Shown: positions 25,037 to 34,073 of the stretch, one piece after another
Numbering within the stretch: position 1 is the stretch's first letter
How the letters are laid out: each line of letters opens with the position of its first letter
DNA from: an uncultured Clostridia bacterium
GTDB lineage: Bacteria > Bacillota > Clostridia > Oscillospirales > Acutalibacteraceae
Length of the DNA: 34,073 nt
NCBI GenBank assembly: GCA_944380845.1
Contig: CALWIU010000034.1
Span: 1-34,073, forward strand
Direction of reading: 5' to 3'
Position numbers and translations under genes: made by a program
Notes under the pieces: generated by a model
Database searches by the model: none
What the model saw: only the letters and a program-made list of their open reading frames with translations
What the model was told of the DNA's origin: nothing

Positions 25037-26001
25037 AAACTTTCCAATTCAGCAGCAACACTATCCAATATCGCTTGTTTTGCCTCAGCCAGTGTTTTTC
25101 CGGGCACATCACAACCCGCTGCCCGTTTATGACCGCCGCCGCCCAGTCTGGCACAAATGCGGCAGGCATCCGCCGGAGCGTTGGTGCGCACGGAGGCGCG
25201 GAACAAGCCGTCCGCATCTTCTTTCAGCGTCACGCCGGCCAAAACACCTTCGATCTGGCGGGGGATCGCCTTCAGCGAATGGGATTCGCTTTCATCCGAT
25301 CCGCTTTTATGATACATATCCTGCGTAATGGTAATCAACGCGCATTTTCCGTCAAAGTGCATTTCCATTGACGCCAGCGCCAGTGTTTCCAAAGCATTAT
25401 AGGTTTTTGTACGCGTTTCAAACATACGCTTGTTGACCATTTCAAAAGGAATGTCTTTGTCAACCATATCCGCCGCCATCCGCAGAGTGCGGGAAGTGGT
25501 GTTTGAATAGCGGAAACAGCCGGTATCGGTGGAAAGTCCCGTATAGATACATTCCGCGACCCCCGAATCCACATCGGCGCCGACCTCATACAGCACCAAA
25601 AGCAGAGTTTCTGCTGCGGCTGCCGCCTCCGGCTCTGTTTCCAACAGCGTATATTTGGCAAAATCCGTATTGGTTGTGTGATGATCGATGCAAAGATCCA
25701 CCCGATCGCGATATTTTTCCCGATACTCTTTTGAGCCGAGCAAATCAAAAGTCGCTACATCTACCGCAACAATCAGATCCGGCTCAAACTGCTGTACTTC
25801 AATATTATCGTTCATGTAATCAAAGCTATGGGGAATCACATCATCAATGCTGATCTTCGCCTTTTTTCCCATGCTTTGCAGCGCACGGCAAAGGGCGTAA
25901 GCGCAACCGAGGGTATCACCGTCCGGGCTTTTATGGCAAAGAATTTCAATTTGCGAATGCTCTTTTAACAGCTTTGCCGCGAAAGCAAAATCAATCCGCA
26001 T
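25033..26001 (-). CDS. DHH/DHHA1 phosphoesterase, NrnA-like
   Basis: DHH-family phosphoesterases of this type degrade short RNA oligonucleotides (nanoRNA), cyclic dinucleotide products or pAp. The 322 residues contain the manganese-binding set HKSPDGDTLG, Asp of VAVDVA, the namesake DHHTTN and Asp of STDTGCFRYSN, followed by the DHHA1 domain ending in GGGGHKRAAGCDV. It is the size of B. subtilis NrnA (about 310). The ATG at 26001 lies inside the end of rbfA, with GGAGG nine bases before it; it overlaps rbfA by 11 bases and truB by four. NrnA-like genes are found in this position in many Clostridia; the exact substrate is inferred. Confidence 0.9.
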   Translation of the reverse strand: MRIDFAFAAKLLKEHSQIEILCHKSPDGDTLGCAYALCRALQSMGKKAKISIDDVIPHSFDYMNDNIEVQQFEPDLIVAVDVATFDLLGSKEYREKYRDRVDLCIDHHTTNTDFAKYTLLETEPEAAAAAETLLLVLYEVGADVDSGVAECIYTGLSTDTGCFRYSNTTSRTLRMAADMVDKDIPFEMVNKRMFETRTKTYNALETLALASMEMHFDGKCALITITQDMYHKSGSDESESHSLKAIPRQIEGVLAGVTLKEDADGLFRASVRTNAPADACRICARLGGGGHKRAAGCDVPGKTLAEAKQAILDSVAAELESL

Positions 26002-26356
26002 GATCCTTCGCCTCCGTTTCGGATTTTTTCAGCTTAGCAAACATTTCAATGGTTTTCACAACGGAATCATCGGCTATAAACTTTATCTCCGGCGCTTTCC
26101 GGATTTTCAGCCTGACGCCTAATTCACGCCGGATGAAACCGGACGCTGCCTGGAGCGCCTTCACTGCCGTTTGAGCCGTTTCCAAACCATCCATGGAGCT
26201 GACATATACTTTTGCAAAAGACAGATCTGAGGTAACCTCTACCCGCACCACAGTCAAAATGGACGATGTGATGCGTGGATCCTTCATTTCCCGGATCAGC
26301 GCGGTAATTTCCCGCTTCATATCCTCAGCCGTTCGGCTGCTTTTGAAATTTGTCAT
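25991..26356 (-). CDS. rbfA: Ribosome-binding factor A
   Basis: RbfA is a small KH-fold protein that helps mature the 5' end of 16S rRNA and assists 30S assembly, especially in the cold. The 121-residue length is typical. Conserved segments are ITALIREMKDPRI, SILTVVRVEVTSDLSFAKVYVSS, ALQAASGFIRRELGVRLKIRKAPEIKFIADDS with the kinked RKAPEI turn. The start is the ATG at 26356, five bases after GGAAGGG. It follows infB after 88 bases containing a short hairpin and overlaps nrnA by 11. Confidence 0.95.
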   Translation of the reverse strand: MTNFKSSRTAEDMKREITALIREMKDPRITSSILTVVRVEVTSDLSFAKVYVSSMDGLETAQTAVKALQAASGFIRRELGVRLKIRKAPEIKFIADDSVVKTIEMFAKLKKSETEAKDHAD

Positions 26357-26444: not shown

Positions 26445-28835
26445 TCAGGCGTCTTGGTATTCCTCCGTAACAAAAGCTTCCAATATATCTTTTTCTTTGA
26501 TGTCGTTAAACTTCACCAGACCGATACCACATTCATAACCGCTGGCGACTTCCTTCACATCGTCTTTGAACCGGCGCAAAGACGCAATCTCGTCTTCGGC
26601 AACGACAATGCCGTCGCGAACCACGCGAACCTTGCAGTTGCGGGTGATTTTGCCATCCAGCACATAGCTGCCGGCAATGGTTCCGAAAGAAGACAGTTTA
26701 AAGACGCTGCGGACTTCGGCTCTGCCCATTTCCACATCACGGTATTTCGGCGCAAGCATACCCTTGATCGCCGCTTCGACATCGTTAATGCAATCATAAA
26801 TGACATTATACATCCGCATTTCCACACTGGAACGCTCTGCATAAGACAGGGCTGCCGGTTCGGGACGAACATGGAACCCGATAATGATCGCATTGGAAGC
26901 AGCGGCAAGCATAACATCGGATTCAGAAACCGCGCCTACCCCACCGTGAATCACACGGACGCGAACTTCATCATTAGACAATTTTTCCAAGCTCTGACGA
27001 ACCGCTTCAACGGATCCCTGAACATCCGCTTTGACAATCAAATTCAATTCTTTCATGCTGCCTGCCGCAATGGTAGAAAACAGCGTATCCAGCGTTACGC
27101 GCTGTACGGCGTTGAAATGCGCCTCTTTTTCCTTCTGCTGGCGCTGCTGTACCAATTCACGAGCCAGCTTTTCATCGGATACGGCGTCGAAAATATCACC
27201 GGCCTGCGGCGCTTCGTCCAGCCCCGTAATTTCCACAGGCACCGACGGTCCGGCTTCACTGACACGACGGCCTTTGTCGTCGGTCATGACACGAACTTTA
27301 CCCACAGAGGTACCCGCGACAATAATATCACCGGTATGCAGGGTTCCGTTTTGCACCAGAAGCGTTGCGACAGGGCCTCTGCCTTTATCCAGGCGCGCTT
27401 CAATGACAACGCCCTTGCCGGCGCGGTTGGCATTTGCCTTCAGTTCCAGCATATCCGCAACCAGCAGCACGGATTCCAGCAGCCGATCCAATCCCATCCC
27501 GGTTTTTGCGGAAACCGGCACGCAAATGACATCGCCGCCCCATTCTTCCGGTACAAGCTCATATTCGGTCAGCTGCTGCAAGATACGATCCGGATTGGCA
27601 TCCGGTTTATCCATTTTATTAATCGCAACAACAATGGCAATCCCCGCCGCCTTTGCATGGCTGATGGCCTCAATGGTCTGCGGCATGATACCGTCATCGG
27701 CGGCAACGACCAGAATGGCAATATCTGTTGCCTGAGCGCCTCTGGCTCTCATCGTCGTAAACGCCGCATGACCGGGCGTATCCAGGAAAGTGATATCCCG
27801 ATCCATCAAATGGACACGGTATGCACCGATATGCTGGGTAATGCCGCCTGCCTCCGTAGAGGTCACCGATGTATGACGAAGGGCATCCAGCAAAGAAGTC
27901 TTGCCGTGATCGACATGACCCATGACGCAAACGACCGGATCTCTGGGCTGCAAATCCTCTTCGGCATCCTCGTGATCGTCAATAATACGATCTTCAATGG
28001 TGACAACGACTTCCTTTTCCACCTTTGCGCCCAGTTCTTCGGCAACAATGGCGGCGGTATCATAATCGATGGTTTGGTTCTGGTTCGCCATCACGCCCAA
28101 AGACATCAGCTTTTTGATGACTTCCGTCGCCTTAAGTTTTAAGCGGGACGCCAGCTCGGCAACTGTGATTTCATCGCCGATGGTTACCGTAATATGCTGT
28201 TTGGCGCGAGCGGCGGCAATTCGCTGCAAACGCTCGGCTTCCGTCTCGCGCTTGCGCTGACGGGTACCCTGCTGTTTGCGGTATTGCTGCGATTTCTGCT
28301 TGATTTTCTGTTTGGTTGTTTCCCGGTCGCTGCGTTTGCCGCGCTCCGGTGCAATTTGTTCGTATTTCTCGTTATATTTATCCAGCTCAACAAAACCGGA
28401 ACGCGTATCCACCGTTTTGGTTTCCCCTTTTGTGCGGGACTGAATGTAGGGGGAATCCTGTTTTTTCTTCTTTTCCGGTCTTTTTTCAAAAGGCTTATCA
28501 GACTTTTGCGGCTTATCATCCTTTTTCCCGTCAGCCGGTTTTTCTGCCGCTTCCTGTTTCTGCTCAGGCTGCTGTTTGGTTTCGGCGTCCTGCTTCTCCG
28601 GCTTTTCCGACTGGCTTTCCTCGACCGGTTTTTCCATGGCAAAATAGCTGTCGAAGTTTTCCGACTCGTTCTGCTGCGTCAGCGTGTCAAAAATCACATC
28701 CAGCTCTGCGTTTTCCAGCGCCGTCTGATGCTTTTTCGTATCGCCGAAATATTTTGCAAGCAGATCAATGATGCTGTTGCTTTTAATTTTAAAATCCTTC
28801 GCGACTTCGTGAACTCTATATTTTATTACAGGCAT
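26445..28835 (-). CDS. infB: Translation initiation factor IF-2
   Basis: IF-2 is the GTPase that brings initiator tRNA to the 30S subunit and promotes subunit joining. The 796 residues comprise an N-terminal IF2_N domain ([21 protein letters not shown]), a charged Gln/Lys/Glu-rich linker (about 65-200), a second IF2_N-type domain, then the G domain with GHVDHGKT (about 306-313), [13 protein letters not shown] and SAKTG, and domains II-IV ending in [18 protein letters not shown]. The start is the ATG at 28835, six bases after AAGGAGG. It overlaps the ylxQ stop by ten bases, so it is coupled to that gene. In studied bacteria infB produces shorter forms from internal starts; not judged here. Confidence 0.97.
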
Positions 28836-29152
28836 TTTGTTTCCTCCTTGTTTTCCGCCGGACGGAGCGATTGACAAAGTCCCTTCGCAAATCCCGGATC
28901 ATTGACCGTCAGTACTGCCGCCTTTTTTCCAAAACGGGCGGCAACCTGCGTTGAATCAAACGGCAGCTCGATGACCGGGAGGCTCGCGCCCAGACCCTTC
29001 ATTTCTTCCCGCAGACGAGAAGACGCGTCTGTCGAAAAGAGCAGAACAAAGGCATTCTTTTGGCGAATATTCTGTTTTACCGCGTCGTGGCCGAAACTGA
29101 CCTTCCCCGCCCGGACTGCCAGTCCCAGCAGCGAATATCCCTTAGACTCCAA
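28826..29152 (-). CDS. ylxQ: L7Ae-family RNA-binding protein (YlxQ)
   Basis: A 108-residue member of the L7Ae/L30e/S12e/Gadd45 family, whose members bind kink-turn RNAs. Family features are [25 protein letters not shown] near the N-terminus and [18 protein letters not shown]. The start is a TTG at 29152: AAGGAG lies ten bases upstream and no ATG or GTG occurs nearby in frame. It overlaps ylxR by 11 bases and infB by ten, lying between them as in most Firmicutes. The cellular role is not firmly established. Confidence 0.9.
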
Positions 29153-29414
29153 TGGAAGTCAGCTCCTTTTCCACCGCTTCATAGACCTCATCCGGTATCT
29201 GAAGATCAAAAGCGCGCTCAAGCCGTTTCGCTTTTCTTGCTTTTTTCAGACATTCCGGATTCCGGCAAAGATACGCGCCTCTACCGTTCATTTTCCCTGA
29301 TAAATCCAGGCAAATCGTACCTTCAGGGGTTTTAACGATCCGCACCAGCTCTTTTTTTGGTTTGCTTTCACCACAGCCGGTGCATTTTCTGAGAGGGACC
29401 TTTTTTTGTTGCAT
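29142..29414 (-). CDS. ylxR: YlxR family RNA-binding protein
   Basis: A 90-residue protein of the YlxR (DUF448) family, always near nusA and infB. It carries the family signature VPLRKCTGCGESKPKKELVRIV and GRGAYLCRNPECLKKARKAKRL; the four Cys (CTGC and CRNPEC) look like a metal site. It has been proposed to bind RNA, and in B. subtilis it is reported to affect gene expression broadly. The start is the ATG at 29414, ten bases after AAAGGA; a longer in-frame TTG form is unlikely. It follows nusA by 50 bases and overlaps ylxQ. Confidence 0.92.
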   Translation of the reverse strand: MQQKKVPLRKCTGCGESKPKKELVRIVKTPEGTICLDLSGKMNGRGAYLCRNPECLKKARKAKRLERAFDLQIPDEVYEAVEKELTSIGV

Positions 29415-29464
29415 CGTGTCCGCGTCCTTTCCCTTGATCGGCGCAAACAAAACGCGCCGTCATG

Positions 29465-30547
29465 TTACGCTTCTTGATGAGACTGCTCCTTATTGGGAGA
29501 AACATAAAAACCGCTTTCCGGAACGATATCGACCTTCCAGCCTGTCAATTTGGCAGCCAGGCGCGCGTTTTGCCCCTTATTGCCGATGGCAAGGGAAAGC
29601 TGGTTGTCAGGCACCGTCACATGGCAAACCTTTTCCTCGTCCGGATCGATTTCCACCTTTAAAATTTCAGCAGGCGCCAAAGCGGCGGCGATAAATTTTT
29701 CCGGCTGGTCACTGTAGGGAATGATATCGATCTTTTCATTTCCGCCTAAGATCTCACGGATCTTATCCACACGGGTGCCGCGCTGCCCGATGCAGGCGCC
29801 GACGGCATCCACATCCGCATCGTGGGAAAGCACCGCCATTTTGGTGCGGGAACCTGCCTCACGGGCGATTCCCTTGATTTCCACGGTACCGTCATAAATT
29901 TCGGGAACTTCTGTCTCGAACAGGCGTTTTACCAAACCGGAATGGGTGCGTGAAATCATAACGCGCATTCCTCTTTCGCCCTCATGCACATCAAACACAA
30001 AGACTTTGATCACATCGCCCACGGAAAAGCTCTCGTCGGGGATCTGCTCGCCCTTGGGCAAAATGGCTTCATTTTTACCGAATTCCAGCGTCAAATTACC
30101 GGTTTTCGGATCAATGGACTGCACTTTTGCGGTAACGATCTCCTGCTTTTTGCGCTGCATTTCATCCATCTGCTGTCCGTGCTCAACCTCACGGATCCCC
30201 TGACGGATTACATGTTTCACCTTTTGCGCTGCGATTCTGCCGAAGTTTTTCGTTTCAAGGGGAATTTCAACAATATCACCGGGAACCGCACCGGGTTTAT
30301 ACTTCTGCGCATCCTCCGGCAGGATATCGACTAACTCATCGTCGATTTCGGAAACAACATTTTTCTGCACAAAGACCCGGATCTCCATATTGTCCGGATC
30401 GATTTCACAAGTAACAACATCTTTCCCGCCGTAGTCATGTTTTGCCGCCGTCACAATGGCATTGCTAATGGTGTTGTAAAGCTGCTCGGCGGAAATTCCC
30501 TTCTCCTTTTCCAATAGCTTTACCGCTTGAAAAAATTCTTCGTTCAT
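29465..30547 (-). CDS. nusA: Transcription termination/antitermination factor NusA
   Basis: NusA binds RNA polymerase and promotes pausing and hairpin-dependent termination. The 360 residues give an N-terminal polymerase-binding domain ([18 protein letters not shown]...), an S1 domain (about 130-200, [27 protein letters not shown]), then two KH domains ([18 protein letters not shown]... with [11 protein letters not shown], and [23 protein letters not shown]). There are no acidic C-terminal repeats, as expected for Firmicutes. The start is the ATG at 30547; the ribosome site AAAGGA is 14 bases upstream, which is rather far. It follows rimP after 129 bases that include an AT-rich patch. Confidence 0.97.
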
Positions 30548-30676
30548 GTTTCGCTGTTTCGTCCTTTCCGATGGTTGAAATACACGGCAACGCACATCGC
30601 CGCCAGCGGATCAACCGAAATCTATTACAATATATATTAGGAATAAAATATAACCTGTATTGATCTTGCGGCGAAT

Positions 30677-31168
30677 TTACTGAAAATCCCCCATATCATC
30701 CGCCTGTACGCGTGTCGTATCCGCCAGCGCAGCGGAAAAAATCTGTCCGTCCTCCAAGAGCAGGGAGATGACATCATTTTCAAACGACTGTAAAAGCCCC
30801 GCATAGTTTTTCCGTTCCTGCACCGCCTGCCGCAGCCGCAGTTTGACCGGTTTGCCAAGGTACTGCTGAAAATGCTCCGGCCGGATCAGCGTGCGTTCCG
30901 CGCCAGGCGACTGCACCTGAAGCCGGTACGCGCGGTCGATCAGATCCCATTCATCCAGCGGCTGATCCAGCGCATCGTTTACGGCGATACAATCTTCGAT
31001 CCCGATTCCGTCGGGCTTATCGATAATCAGGCGCAAGATCCAGTCCGCGCCTTCCTTCAGGAAGCGAACATCCCAGAGCTGAAGCCCCAGCGCATTGACG
31101 ATCGGCGTTGCTCTTTCCCGCACCGCGTCGGCAACACTCTGCTTTTTCTCGGTCGGCATCCGCCTCAT
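30677..31168 (-). CDS. rimP: Ribosome maturation factor RimP
   Basis: RimP is needed for 30S subunit assembly. The 163-residue frame has the family pattern: VADAVRERATPIVNALGLQLWDVRFLKEG, LRLIIDKPDGIGIEDCIAVNDAL (the usual D.L...D motif), YRLQVQSPGAERTL and a C-terminal SH3-like domain (KPVKLRL...NYAGLLQSF). Two starts are possible: ATG at 31168, which overlaps the stop of an upstream short frame as ATGA and has GAGG five bases before, or ATG at 31159, eight bases after AAAGGA. The first is used here because this operon couples genes by ATGA repeatedly. It is the first long gene of the twelve-gene operon. Confidence 0.95.
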   Translation of the reverse strand: MRRMPTEKKQSVADAVRERATPIVNALGLQLWDVRFLKEGADWILRLIIDKPDGIGIEDCIAVNDALDQPLDEWDLIDRAYRLQVQSPGAERTLIRPEHFQQYLGKPVKLRLRQAVQERKNYAGLLQSFENDVISLLLEDGQIFSAALADTTRVQADDMGDFQ

Positions 31169-31224
31169 CCTTTCCTCACATTTTGCATTTGAACAAACAA
31201 AAGAGCGGGTCGCCCCACTCTCAT
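31165..31224 (-). CDS. Putative 19-residue leader peptide upstream of rimP
   Basis: A short frame from ATG at 31224 to TGA at 31165 encodes MRVGRPALLFVQMQNVRKG. AGGAG lies seven bases before the ATG, an ideal ribosome site, and the transcript predicted from the promoter at 31251-31279 includes it. The stop overlaps the ATG at 31168 of rimP as ATGA, so translation would run directly into rimP. Codons 2-8 coincide with the hairpin at 31202-31221. A ribosome starting here would cover the hairpin. Expression and function are inference; the peptide itself matches no family I recognise. Confidence 0.5.
   Translation of the reverse strand: MRVGRPALLFVQMQNVRKG
31194..31221 (-). promoter_or_regulatory. 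Attenuator-like hairpin in the rimP-nusA leader
   Basis: Minus strand AGAGTGGG (31221-31214), GCGA loop (a GNRA tetraloop), CCCGCTCT (31209-31202), then TTTGTTTG. The stem has eight pairs with one G-T. The interrupted T-tract is the type that needs NusA for efficient termination. In B. subtilis nusA is known to be autoregulated by a NusA-dependent terminator in this operon's leader; the same is inferred here. Confidence 0.65.
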
Positions 31225-31250
31225 TGTCAAACTCCTATGCTTACGCAAGC

Positions 31251-31279
31251 AGTATACCACAAATAAAATCAAATAGCAA
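31251..31279 (-). promoter_or_regulatory. Promoter of the rimP-nusA-infB-proA operon
   Basis: Minus strand TTGCTA (31279-31274), 17 bases, TATACT (31256-31251), with TGG just before the -10 (extended -10). A short dyad TGCTT-ACGC-AAGCA (31238-31251) covers the likely start of transcription. Confidence 0.8.
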
Positions 31280-31372: not shown

Positions 31373-33319
31373 TTAAAATGCCGACAAAACCTTGGCGTCT
31401 TTTTTCACAAAGGCAGCGAATTCATGCACCGGCACGGTGATTTGATGAAAACCCTTATGATACTCTTTCCGATCCATTGTCAAGATCCAATGATCGGAGG
31501 GAAGATAAACGGTTTTTTCCGTTTGCCCTTCCTGTACGACAGGCGCAAAAAGGATATCGTCGCCGAACATATATTGTTCGCCTAAAGTATAGCAGATCTC
31601 GTCTTTCGGGAAATCAAAAAACATGGGACGCATCACGGGAATTCCCTTTTCCGAAGCGATCTTCATATGTTTTTCAATATACGGACGCAGTCTTTCCCGC
31701 AGGAAAACAAGATCTTTCAAGATTTTGAAATTTTCGTCCCCAAAGCTCCAAAGTTCGTTCGGGTCGCCGGAAGGTTCAAGCAGATCGCTTTTTTCGCCGT
31801 GGCGCTTTCGGTTGCCGTGAAGCCGCATGACCGGACAGAAAACACCATACTGGAACCACCGGACGATCAGTTCCCTGAAGGAATCGCTGTGGGTGTCGCC
31901 GCCGTAAAAACCGCCGATATCGGTATTCCACCAGGGGATGCCGCACATCGCCATATTCAGCCCGGCTTTTACCTGACAGGCAAGGCTTTGAAAAGTGGAT
32001 TGAATATCCCCGGACCACACCAGAGCGCCAAATTTCTGGCTTCCCAGATAAGCGCACCTTGTCAGCGTAACGATATCATCTCTGCCGGCCTGACGAAGCC
32101 CGTCATAGGCCATTTTTGCATAATAATAAGGAAACAGCAATCCGACTTCATCGCCTCGCCCCATATAAAAGCGAAGATTGTCAAAATGAACCGGATAAAT
32201 TTCCGGCTCGGCTTCATCGAACCAGACGCCGTCCACGCCGTTGTCGATGTAGTTTTCCCGGATGGCGCGCCACACATACTCTCTGGTCGCGGGATTGGTC
32301 GCATCGATTTCCGCCTGCCAGCCGTAAAAGGAAAACACTCTGTCGGAACCTCTCTCGGTTCTTATCAGCAAATTGTTATCGCTCATATACCGGTAATTCC
32401 GGCTGTTTTCGTTGATGGTCGGCCACACGGATACAACAAGTTTTGTCCCCATCTCGTGAAGTTCCCTTGCCATCGCCCTGACATCGGGCCAGTATTTCGG
32501 ATCAAATTCATAGTTTCCCTGCTCTGTCCAGTGGAAATAATCCGCGATAATGACCGCAAGCGGGATCCCCTCTTTGTGATACCGTCTTGCCACCGCCAAC
32601 AGTTCTTCCTGCGTTTCATACCGCAAGCGGCACTGCCAGAAACCGGTTGCCCAATGCGGCATGACAGGGGCGTGCCCGGTCAAATCGGCAAGCGTTGCCG
32701 TCACTTCTGCGGGAGAACCGGCGATGACGACATAATCGATCCGCCGGGCAGCGTCACTTGACCACCTTGTCCTGTTGTGGGACAAATCAACGCTTCCCGT
32801 GCCGGGGCTGTTCCAAAGGAATCCGTAACCCAGCGAAGAATAAACATAGGGTATCGTACATTTCGCATTGATGTTCCTGATATCAAAAGAACAGCCTTTC
32901 AGATCAAACCTGTTGTTTGGCTCGTGCCCCAGACCGTAAAAATGCTCGTTCTCATTGGGGTTAAAGGTTACCCTTGTTTTCCAGCAGCTGTTCCCGACGC
33001 TGACGCAGGGGCGGTACTCATTGTCAAAGGTCATTTCGGGCTGTTCTTCCAGCAGTTTCTCCCCATTTTTCCAAAAGGAAACGCTTCCGTCTCTGTTGAG
33101 TTTCAGCGCAAGATCCCCGTTGACGACCATGGCAAAAGAATCAAATACCTGCCTGTCGCAAGCCATGTCCAGTGGCATCAGGGTATAATTCTCTTCTTCC
33201 TCCCTACAGGACGGGAACCCCTGAAACCGGATCGCATTTTTCGCACAGGCGGTGATTTTGATCAGCTCGCCTTTTCGCATATAGTACAGCGCATTGCCTT
33301 TTGTAATGATATTATCCAT
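31373..33319 (-). CDS. Glycoside hydrolase family 31 protein (alpha-glucosidase/alpha-xylosidase type)
   Basis: A 648-residue GH31 enzyme, which removes non-reducing alpha-linked glucose or xylose with retention. An N-terminal beta-sandwich (about 1-215, with FYGLGHEPNNRFDLKG) precedes the TIM barrel. The nucleophile is Asp 368 in GVDGVWFDEAEPE (the WxDxxEP motif) and the acid/base Asp 438 in ALVWSGDIQSTF. Further conserved features are GIPLAVIIADYFHW, the WWNTDIGGFYGG segment, and PVMRLHGNR near the +1 site. No signal peptide is seen, so the substrate is taken up first. YFHW and the Trp-rich sites suggest alpha-xylosidase or alpha-glucosidase; sequence alone does not decide. The start is the ATG at 33319, six bases after AGGAGGT. 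It is a single-gene unit with a promoter at 33433-33461. Confidence 0.92.
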   Translation of the reverse strand: MDNIITKGNALYYMRKGELIKITACAKNAIRFQGFPSCREEEENYTLMPLDMACDRQVFDSFAMVVNGDLALKLNRDGSVSFWKNGEKLLEEQPEMTFDNEYRPCVSVGNSCWKTRVTFNPNENEHFYGLGHEPNNRFDLKGCSFDIRNINAKCTIPYVYSSLGYGFLWNSPGTGSVDLSHNRTRWSSDAARRIDYVVIAGSPAEVTATLADLTGHAPVMPHWATGFWQCRLRYETQEELLAVARRYHKEGIPLAVIIADYFHWTEQGNYEFDPKYWPDVRAMARELHEMGTKLVVSVWPTINENSRNYRYMSDNNLLIRTERGSDRVFSFYGWQAEIDATNPATREYVWRAIRENYIDNGVDGVWFDEAEPEIYPVHFDNLRFYMGRGDEVGLLFPYYYAKMAYDGLRQAGRDDIVTLTRCAYLGSQKFGALVWSGDIQSTFQSLACQVKAGLNMAMCGIPWWNTDIGGFYGGDTHSDSFRELIVRWFQYGVFCPVMRLHGNRKRHGEKSDLLEPSGDPNELWSFGDENFKILKDLVFLRERLRPYIEKHMKIASEKGIPVMRPMFFDFPKDEICYTLGEQYMFGDDILFAPVVQEGQTEKTVYLPSDHWILTMDRKEYHKGFHQITVPVHEFAAFVKKDAKVLSAF

Positions 33320-33426
33320 GTTGACCTCCTGTTTCACCCGAGGCTCCCTTTTTGCAGCAGGGAAAATCATTCCCGCAAAGGGGAATCCGCCGCCAGGACA
33401 GCAATCAGACGCCGCTGTCCGCCTCT
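33320..33426 (-). promoter_or_regulatory. Structured leader of the GH31 gene
   Basis: The predicted leader of about 105 bases has three hairpins in a row on the minus strand: GGACAGC/GCTGTCC with an 11 base loop, ATTCCC-CTTTGC-GGGAAT, and TCCCT/AGGGA. The GGGAA of the second can pair instead with TTCCC of the third, so the two are mutually exclusive. It does not match a riboswitch class I recognise. Confidence 0.4.
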
Positions 33427-33602: not shown

Positions 33603-34073
33603 GGGGAGCGACGGTCTGCTGCATTTAAAATGTGGTACGCTATCACATTTCAATCTACGCTCCCCGTGCGGGGAGCGACTGCTTCGATTGTGGCTCTGTG
33701 CTTAGCTTTTCGATTTCAATCCACGCTCCCCGTGCGGGGAGCGACGCAATATCCTTTGTGATTGCAATCGCCCGTTTGATTTCAATCCACGCTCCCCGTG
33801 TGGGGAGCGACGGACATGGCGGCAGTGATTCTGGCGCGACAAAAGATTTCAATCCACGCTCCCCGTGCGGGGAGCGACGATAACACCTGATTGTTATTGT
33901 TCACAGCCGCAAATTTCAATCCACGCTCCCCGTGCGGGGAGCGACTATCGGTCAAGAGTATCACCTCGCTTTCATAGCAATTTCAATCCACGCTCCCCGT
34001 ACGGGGAGCGACTGATGCTGGTAGAAAAGGTGGAACACACCTTTGCAATTTCAATCCACGCTCCCCGTGCGGG
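33603..34073 (-). CRISPR. Type I-C-like CRISPR array, trailer end, continuing past the window
   Basis: Seven 33 base repeats start at 33647, 33713, 33779, 33846, 33913, 33980 and 34048 (the last is cut by the window edge after 26 bases). They are separated by spacers of 33-35 bases. A truncated ten base repeat (GGGGAGCGAC) sits at 33603-33612 before the first full spacer. Read on the minus strand, the repeat begins GTCGCTCCCC and ends GTGGATTGAAAT, with an 8 bp stem CGCTCCCC/GGGGAGCG; this is the classic type I-C repeat. Transcription should run right to left, so the leader and cas genes lie beyond the right edge. Point changes are seen in repeats 1 (handle), 3 and 6 (loop); the stem is kept in all. 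Repeat degeneracy at the left fits the trailer end. Confidence 0.97.

Follow-up and report, generated by a model that had tools for sequence, protein, structure and literature searches.

A conserved rimP-leader hairpin, probably serving NusA feedback, precedes the rimP-nusA-infB operon of an uncultured Clostridia bacterium and its relatives

In this study, we report that the region in front of the rimP-nusA-infB operon of an uncultured Clostridia bacterium very probably carries the known rimP-leader, an attenuator of the intrinsic terminator type acting in negative feedback by NusA, and that a short reading frame lying across it is incidental. The window, which is the whole stretch of DNA analysed, comprises 34,073 nucleotides of contig CALWIU010000034.1. 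A conserved hairpin, covariation within its stem, a conserved weak tail, proximity to a promoter, and three genomes in which the hairpin stands before nusA without rimP were found. The preliminary description had placed a NusA-type attenuator hairpin in front of this operon, and the conserved hairpin, the covariation and the weak tail support that assignment; the part given to NusA here is suggested by published work in other Firmicutes. The comparison thus confirms, across relatives that are mostly uncultured, a widespread element that is likely to serve NusA feedback.

The genes are arranged on the minus strand of the window in the order rimP-nusA-ylxR-infB-rbfA. The rimP gene occupies 30677..31159 when read from the start codon better supported by comparison (RimP_N and C-terminal domain matches, in an open reading frame from 31168), followed by nusA at 29465..30595 (GTG start as listed; NusA_N and KH domains), ylxR at 29142..29450 (PF04296), infB, encoding IF-2, at 26445..28877 and rbfA at 25991..26356 (PF02033). 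Upstream of rimP, on the same minus strand, lies a glycoside hydrolase family 31 gene (31373-33370), and a CRISPR-like array of seven repeats of about 33 nt (ATTTCAATCCACGCTCCCCGTGCGGGGAGCGAC) with a period of 66-68 bases extends over 33647-34073, its last repeat being interrupted by the end of the window.

A promoter-like site on the minus strand at 31251..31279 consists, by sequence pattern, of TTGCTA, a 17-nt spacer and an extended -10 element, TGTGGTATACT; it is the one such site found before rimP, against a mean of 1.0 in shuffles. Transcription is predicted from spacing to start at 31244 (minus strand), the seventh base past the -10. Among relatives, a -10-like element assigned by a script rule precedes the hairpin in 132 of 134 leaders, and these 132, left after removal of G039 and G213 (no clear -10), form the leader set used below. 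The words GTAAG and GTAA occur near the predicted start in the window (31244-31240) and relatives, in 31/132 and 60/132 leaders, respectively. Counted from this start, the transcript of the window would carry AGGAG at +9, an AUG at +21 and the hairpin at +24 to +43, and then the tail UUUGUUUGUU.

The core hairpin, AGAGUGGG-GCGA-CCCGCUCU, was located on the minus strand at 31202..31221 by folding and comparison, and it carries the rimP-leader motif. The interrupted U-tract UUUGUUUGUU follows at 31192..31201 (minus strand), giving a predicted 3' end at about +50 to +52. In predicted folds the outer pairs GACAA/UUGUU extend the hairpin to 31196..31228 (minus strand), with a bulged U at 31223. The GNRA hairpin and interrupted U-tract over the reading frame were thus present in the letters as first described, and it was the extent of the hairpin that needed correction, the predicted outer pairs making the stem longer. 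The 141-nt leader folds moderately better than its shuffles (z -1.85; 8/200 shuffles as good), and a single predicted fold of the whole leader retains the hairpin. A search of the bacterium's own genome with the hairpin model gave one match at E 5e-8, the next-best being at 0.02. Rfam returned no gathering-score match for the leader; four weak matches, all unrelated, turned up at E<=10. The definition of the rimP-leader given in PMC2965389 does not call for an Rfam match.

Conservation was assessed in a sample of 40 genomes, including the bacterium's own, screened for RimP alone. All 36 RimP-bearing genomes had the hairpin no more than 330 nt ahead of the RimP domain, usually in the form GAGYGGG..CCCRCUC, the exceptions being G029 with a shorter GAGUGG..CCACUC and G037 with GAGUGAGG. 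In the pairing alignment of 35 of these (G006 was left out, being identical there to G002), 97.8% of cells hold standard pairs and both sides have changed at 3/9 pairs. The three G-C pairs of GGG...CCC are kept in 34, 34 and 31 of the 35 rows. None of 500 shuffles reached the covariation score and slid controls were lower, the shuffle and mismatch controls for leaders ignoring the relatedness of the genomes. A compensated G-C to A-U change in mid-stem was seen in four further genomes.

Among the matches listed, the hairpin model matched 192/200 family genomes at E<=0.1 and 94/101 genomes of the phylum at E<=0.01, leaving 8 and 7 genomes, respectively, with no match. RimP lay behind the hairpin in 26 of 29 new phylum loci checked and was not there in three. 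A larger locus set of 157 sources, counting the window and repeated places, contains 148 with RimP and 9 without, and in five of the 148 the hairpin departs from the pattern, four having GAGUAGG..CCUGCUC and the fifth being that of G029. At G018:C4:66485-67654, two RimP_N matches stand about 950 bases apart with a leader hairpin match at each, which may be a duplication or an assembly error. The 132 leaders are a hairpin-biased sample, 36 having been chosen on RimP and part by hairpin-model score, and their hairpins were picked by a script rule with only some picks inspected. Their loops are GCGA in 65, GCAA in 21, GUGA in 14, GAAA, GAGA and GUAA in one each, and others in 29. The tails are weak throughout, as six consecutive Ts within nine bases occur in 0/132 leaders, and the commonest tail is TTTTGTTTG (32/132). 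The stem can be extended outward by 5.03 pairs on average, compared with 4.04 for permuted halves and a maximum of 4.40 in 2000 permutations that ignore relatedness.

Genomes in which rimP is missing or has moved provide a natural experiment. Among the matches listed, RimP was not found in 13/200 family genomes; nor was it found in G031 and G038, which belong to the 40-genome set and lie outside the family. NusA was searched for in these 15 genomes and in G066, in which the hairpin precedes nusA, and was present in 9 of the 16, with rimP adjoining nusA in none of the nine. The hairpin stands directly before nusA with no preceding rimP in three of them, namely G184 (L125/L189), G066 (L129/L191) and G062 (L190), and in G066 rimP has been relocated to another contig (L199), where it lacks the hairpin. 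In the remaining six, the hairpin model found nothing before nusA at E values up to 1, and one of these, G176, has a different hairpin there. In G184, G062 and G066 the element appears to go with nusA and not with rimP, consistent with NusA feedback; the cases are few and the remaining six lend this no support, and three cases in nine lean towards NusA, not RimP, as the regulated target.

The reading frame that gave rise to a different proposal is also real in its letters. As the preliminary description had it, a 19-codon frame with its stop, MRVGRPALLFVQMQNVRKG, runs on the minus strand over 31165..31224 (ATG at 31224, TGA at 31167-31165) behind an SD-like AGGAG (31232..31236, minus strand) 7 nt before the AUG, and overlaps the hairpin. 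It was, however, the frame as a translated and novel part of the leader that did not withstand comparison. In seven genomes of the genus, including the window's, the core stem is common to all, together with the tail UUUUGUUU; the length of the frame goes from 19 codons in the window's genome through 11 in G003 to 4 in both G004 and G005, whose GUGA loop provides the stop. In G001, G002 and G006, ACG takes the place of the leader AUG and the core stem is identical. Other AUGs further upstream open frames of 13 and 1 codons in G002 and G006, neither with a Shine-Dalgarno (SD) sequence, and in G001 and G006 the GUG of the stem stands behind an SD-like word and opens a frame that enters rimP. No leader frame is common to all seven genomes. 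The start is thus lost in three of the seven and the frame cut in three others, with stem, GNRA loop and tail kept. The outer CAA/UUG pairs recur in 7/7 genus genomes around a bulge that is U or C and that corresponds to the middle base of the AUG (31223 in the window), so that in predicted folds, where the stem continues outward and the middle base of the AUG is a mere bulge, the AUG appears dispensable. Within the genus, as judged by these alignments, it is the structure that has been kept and not the start codon, the outcome that the preliminary description had itself named as telling against its frame.

The wider set gave the same picture. An AUG with an SD precedes the hairpin in 6/132 leaders, four of them from this genus, against 4.8 in shuffles (standard deviation 2.0), and one opening at least nine codons does so in 4/132 against 3.2 (standard deviation 1.7). 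A conserved upstream frame in any reading frame was therefore rejected, as none is shared and AUG with SD is not enriched in the 132 leaders. A run of control codons was not seen in the 19 codons, and a description of a leader frame over the rimP-leader was not found in open-access papers represented mostly by titles and abstracts. The hairpin is beyond chance and the 19-codon frame is not, and the frame looks incidental rather than a new sensor: the purine-rich 5' segment and the outer stem would simply happen to spell an SD and an AUG in this sublineage.

The 3' end of the frame required a similar correction. Its stop does overlap a downstream ATG (31168) as ATGA, as was first noted, but that ATG is probably not the start of rimP. 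Its counterpart in G003 does not share the frame of RimP, and the ATG at 31159 is equivalent in 7/7 genus genomes, with a shared N-terminus of MPTEKK, MADEKK or MAEKK, making 31159 the likely start. The stop of the frame ends five bases before it, and the ATGA overlap was accordingly rejected as a means of translational coupling to rimP.

The proposal that ribosomes loading at the leader AUG keep the hairpin from forming, making the element a joint sensor of translation initiation and NusA, would if true join translation initiation to NusA control. It draws on the operon encoding both IF-2 and NusA, on G000, G003, G004 and G005 each having an AGGAG or AGGA SD and, 4 nt ahead of the GAG of the stem, an AUG, and on the consideration that a 30S subunit on the leader AUG would cover the 5' arm at any frame length. 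AUG with SD is common to four of the seven genus members, and translation might still occur there. We nevertheless consider this model highly unlikely, as the comparison tells against it: ACG replaces the start codon in three genomes with an identical core stem, frame lengths vary, and the combination of SD and AUG is not enriched above shuffles. The leader AUG would, moreover, be buried in the extended predicted stem. If the AUG lies at +21 and transcripts end at +50 to +52, the RNA needed by a 30S subunit would emerge only at the termination point. About 14 nt of RNA is held inside the polymerase. Terminators release 7-9 nt after the stem, as reported in PMC8060035, so only the RNA to about +36 would be exposed at release, which is what a 30S subunit needs for an AUG at +21; on this argument from geometry ribosomes arrive late, and loading could compete solely during a long pause. 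Termination at 31 nt, as reported for the S. agalactiae leader (PMC4448216), likewise leaves no space for such a frame.

The 5' segment and the 3' arm invite two further readings. SD-like 4-mers lie between start and hairpin in 57/132 leaders (34 in shuffles, standard deviation 4.4), and the 5' segment contains an AUG in 92/132 (74 in shuffles, standard deviation 4.2), 32 of these AUGs being at -6, in a frame differing from the window's. The purine-rich segment, often AGGAUGAAA, could be read as a landing site for 30S subunits that would initiate at the GUG found in most stems, with no conserved peptide, and an SD-like match does precede the stem GUG in 38/132 leaders against 14.6 in shuffles (standard deviation 3.4). 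This too appears highly improbable. The frames from the stem GUG span anything from two codons to a fusion with rimP, 9/38 being in frame with rimP, and in 6/38 a GUGA loop ends the frame after two codons. The excess of SD-like words, moreover, falls mainly at one position, 23 leaders having such a 4-mer that starts at -9 relative to the stem and 18 having GGATGAAA abutting the stem, and may have been inherited once; AGGAUG might alternatively pair with UGUUU of the tail. The enriched 5' element as a whole may have been inherited once, may pair with the tail or may bind something. We regard as very unlikely the reading in which 30S binding just upstream delays folding of the hairpin, in G000, G003, G004 and G005 and, through a different arrangement, in genera whose stem is preceded by AGGAUGAAA, so that one attenuator reads initiation capacity and NusA level with no conserved peptide. 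A boxA-like NusB-S10 site in the 3' arm (CGCUCUUU) opposing the terminator is extremely unlikely: GYTCTTT, with which the gammaproteobacterial boxA consensus GYTCTTTAANA begins (PMC5725501), is found in 97/132 3' arms, but GYTCTTTAA occurs in 0/132 leaders, the G of the word is A in 9/35 rows (UA pairs), and the 3' arm would still lie within the polymerase when termination is decided.

Feedback by NusA through a rimP-leader remains the best explanation, and would operate as follows. The attenuator stands about 23 nt behind the predicted transcription start, so that RNA polymerase would have transcribed about 50 nt on meeting the interrupted U-tract. Interruptions of the distal U-tract are described in PMC8060035 as a trait of NusA-dependent terminators, and NusA would here assist the pause and the hairpin. 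The rimP-leader hairpin has been attributed to NusA feedback, with NusA as the best candidate regulator (Naville & Gautheret 2010, PMC2965389), and the same source describes its general form as having no visible antiterminator. More NusA would then cause more transcripts to end before rimP-nusA-infB, and the hairpin probably lets NusA limit its own production.

Leader-peptide attenuators of the trp, his and erm type have a short frame overlapping an RNA hairpin; in contrast to these, the leader described here lacks both a conserved frame and a run of control codons within its 19. Attenuation of nusA in B. subtilis, stimulated by NusA, was reportedly described by Mondal et al. in 2016. According to a review (PMC12288461), NusA of B. 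subtilis regulates its own synthesis by stimulating termination in the leader, and the likeness lies in intrinsic termination in a 5' leader controlling transcription into nusA, the NusA effect having been shown in B. subtilis and being proposed here by analogy. The rimP-nusA leader of S. agalactiae similarly gives a short terminated and a long transcript from one start, and NusA feedback was proposed for it; termination was placed by RNA-seq 31 nt after the start (PMC4448216), compared with about 50 predicted in the window. The closest likeness is to the rimP-leader as described in PMC2965389, which lies in the 5' UTR of the rimP-nusA-infB operon (from a predicted start in the window) and has a terminator hairpin with a G-rich 5' arm, a C-rich 3' arm (GGG..CCC) and a T-stretch, for which the interrupted tract of the window stands. 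Its GGGc..gCCC stem, reported in the majority of species, corresponds to GUGGG-GCGA-CCCGC in the window, where the capitals agree and the lower-case c and g do not. Nothing essential differs from that published description; what sets the present leader apart is an outer stem that contains an AUG with an SD upstream.
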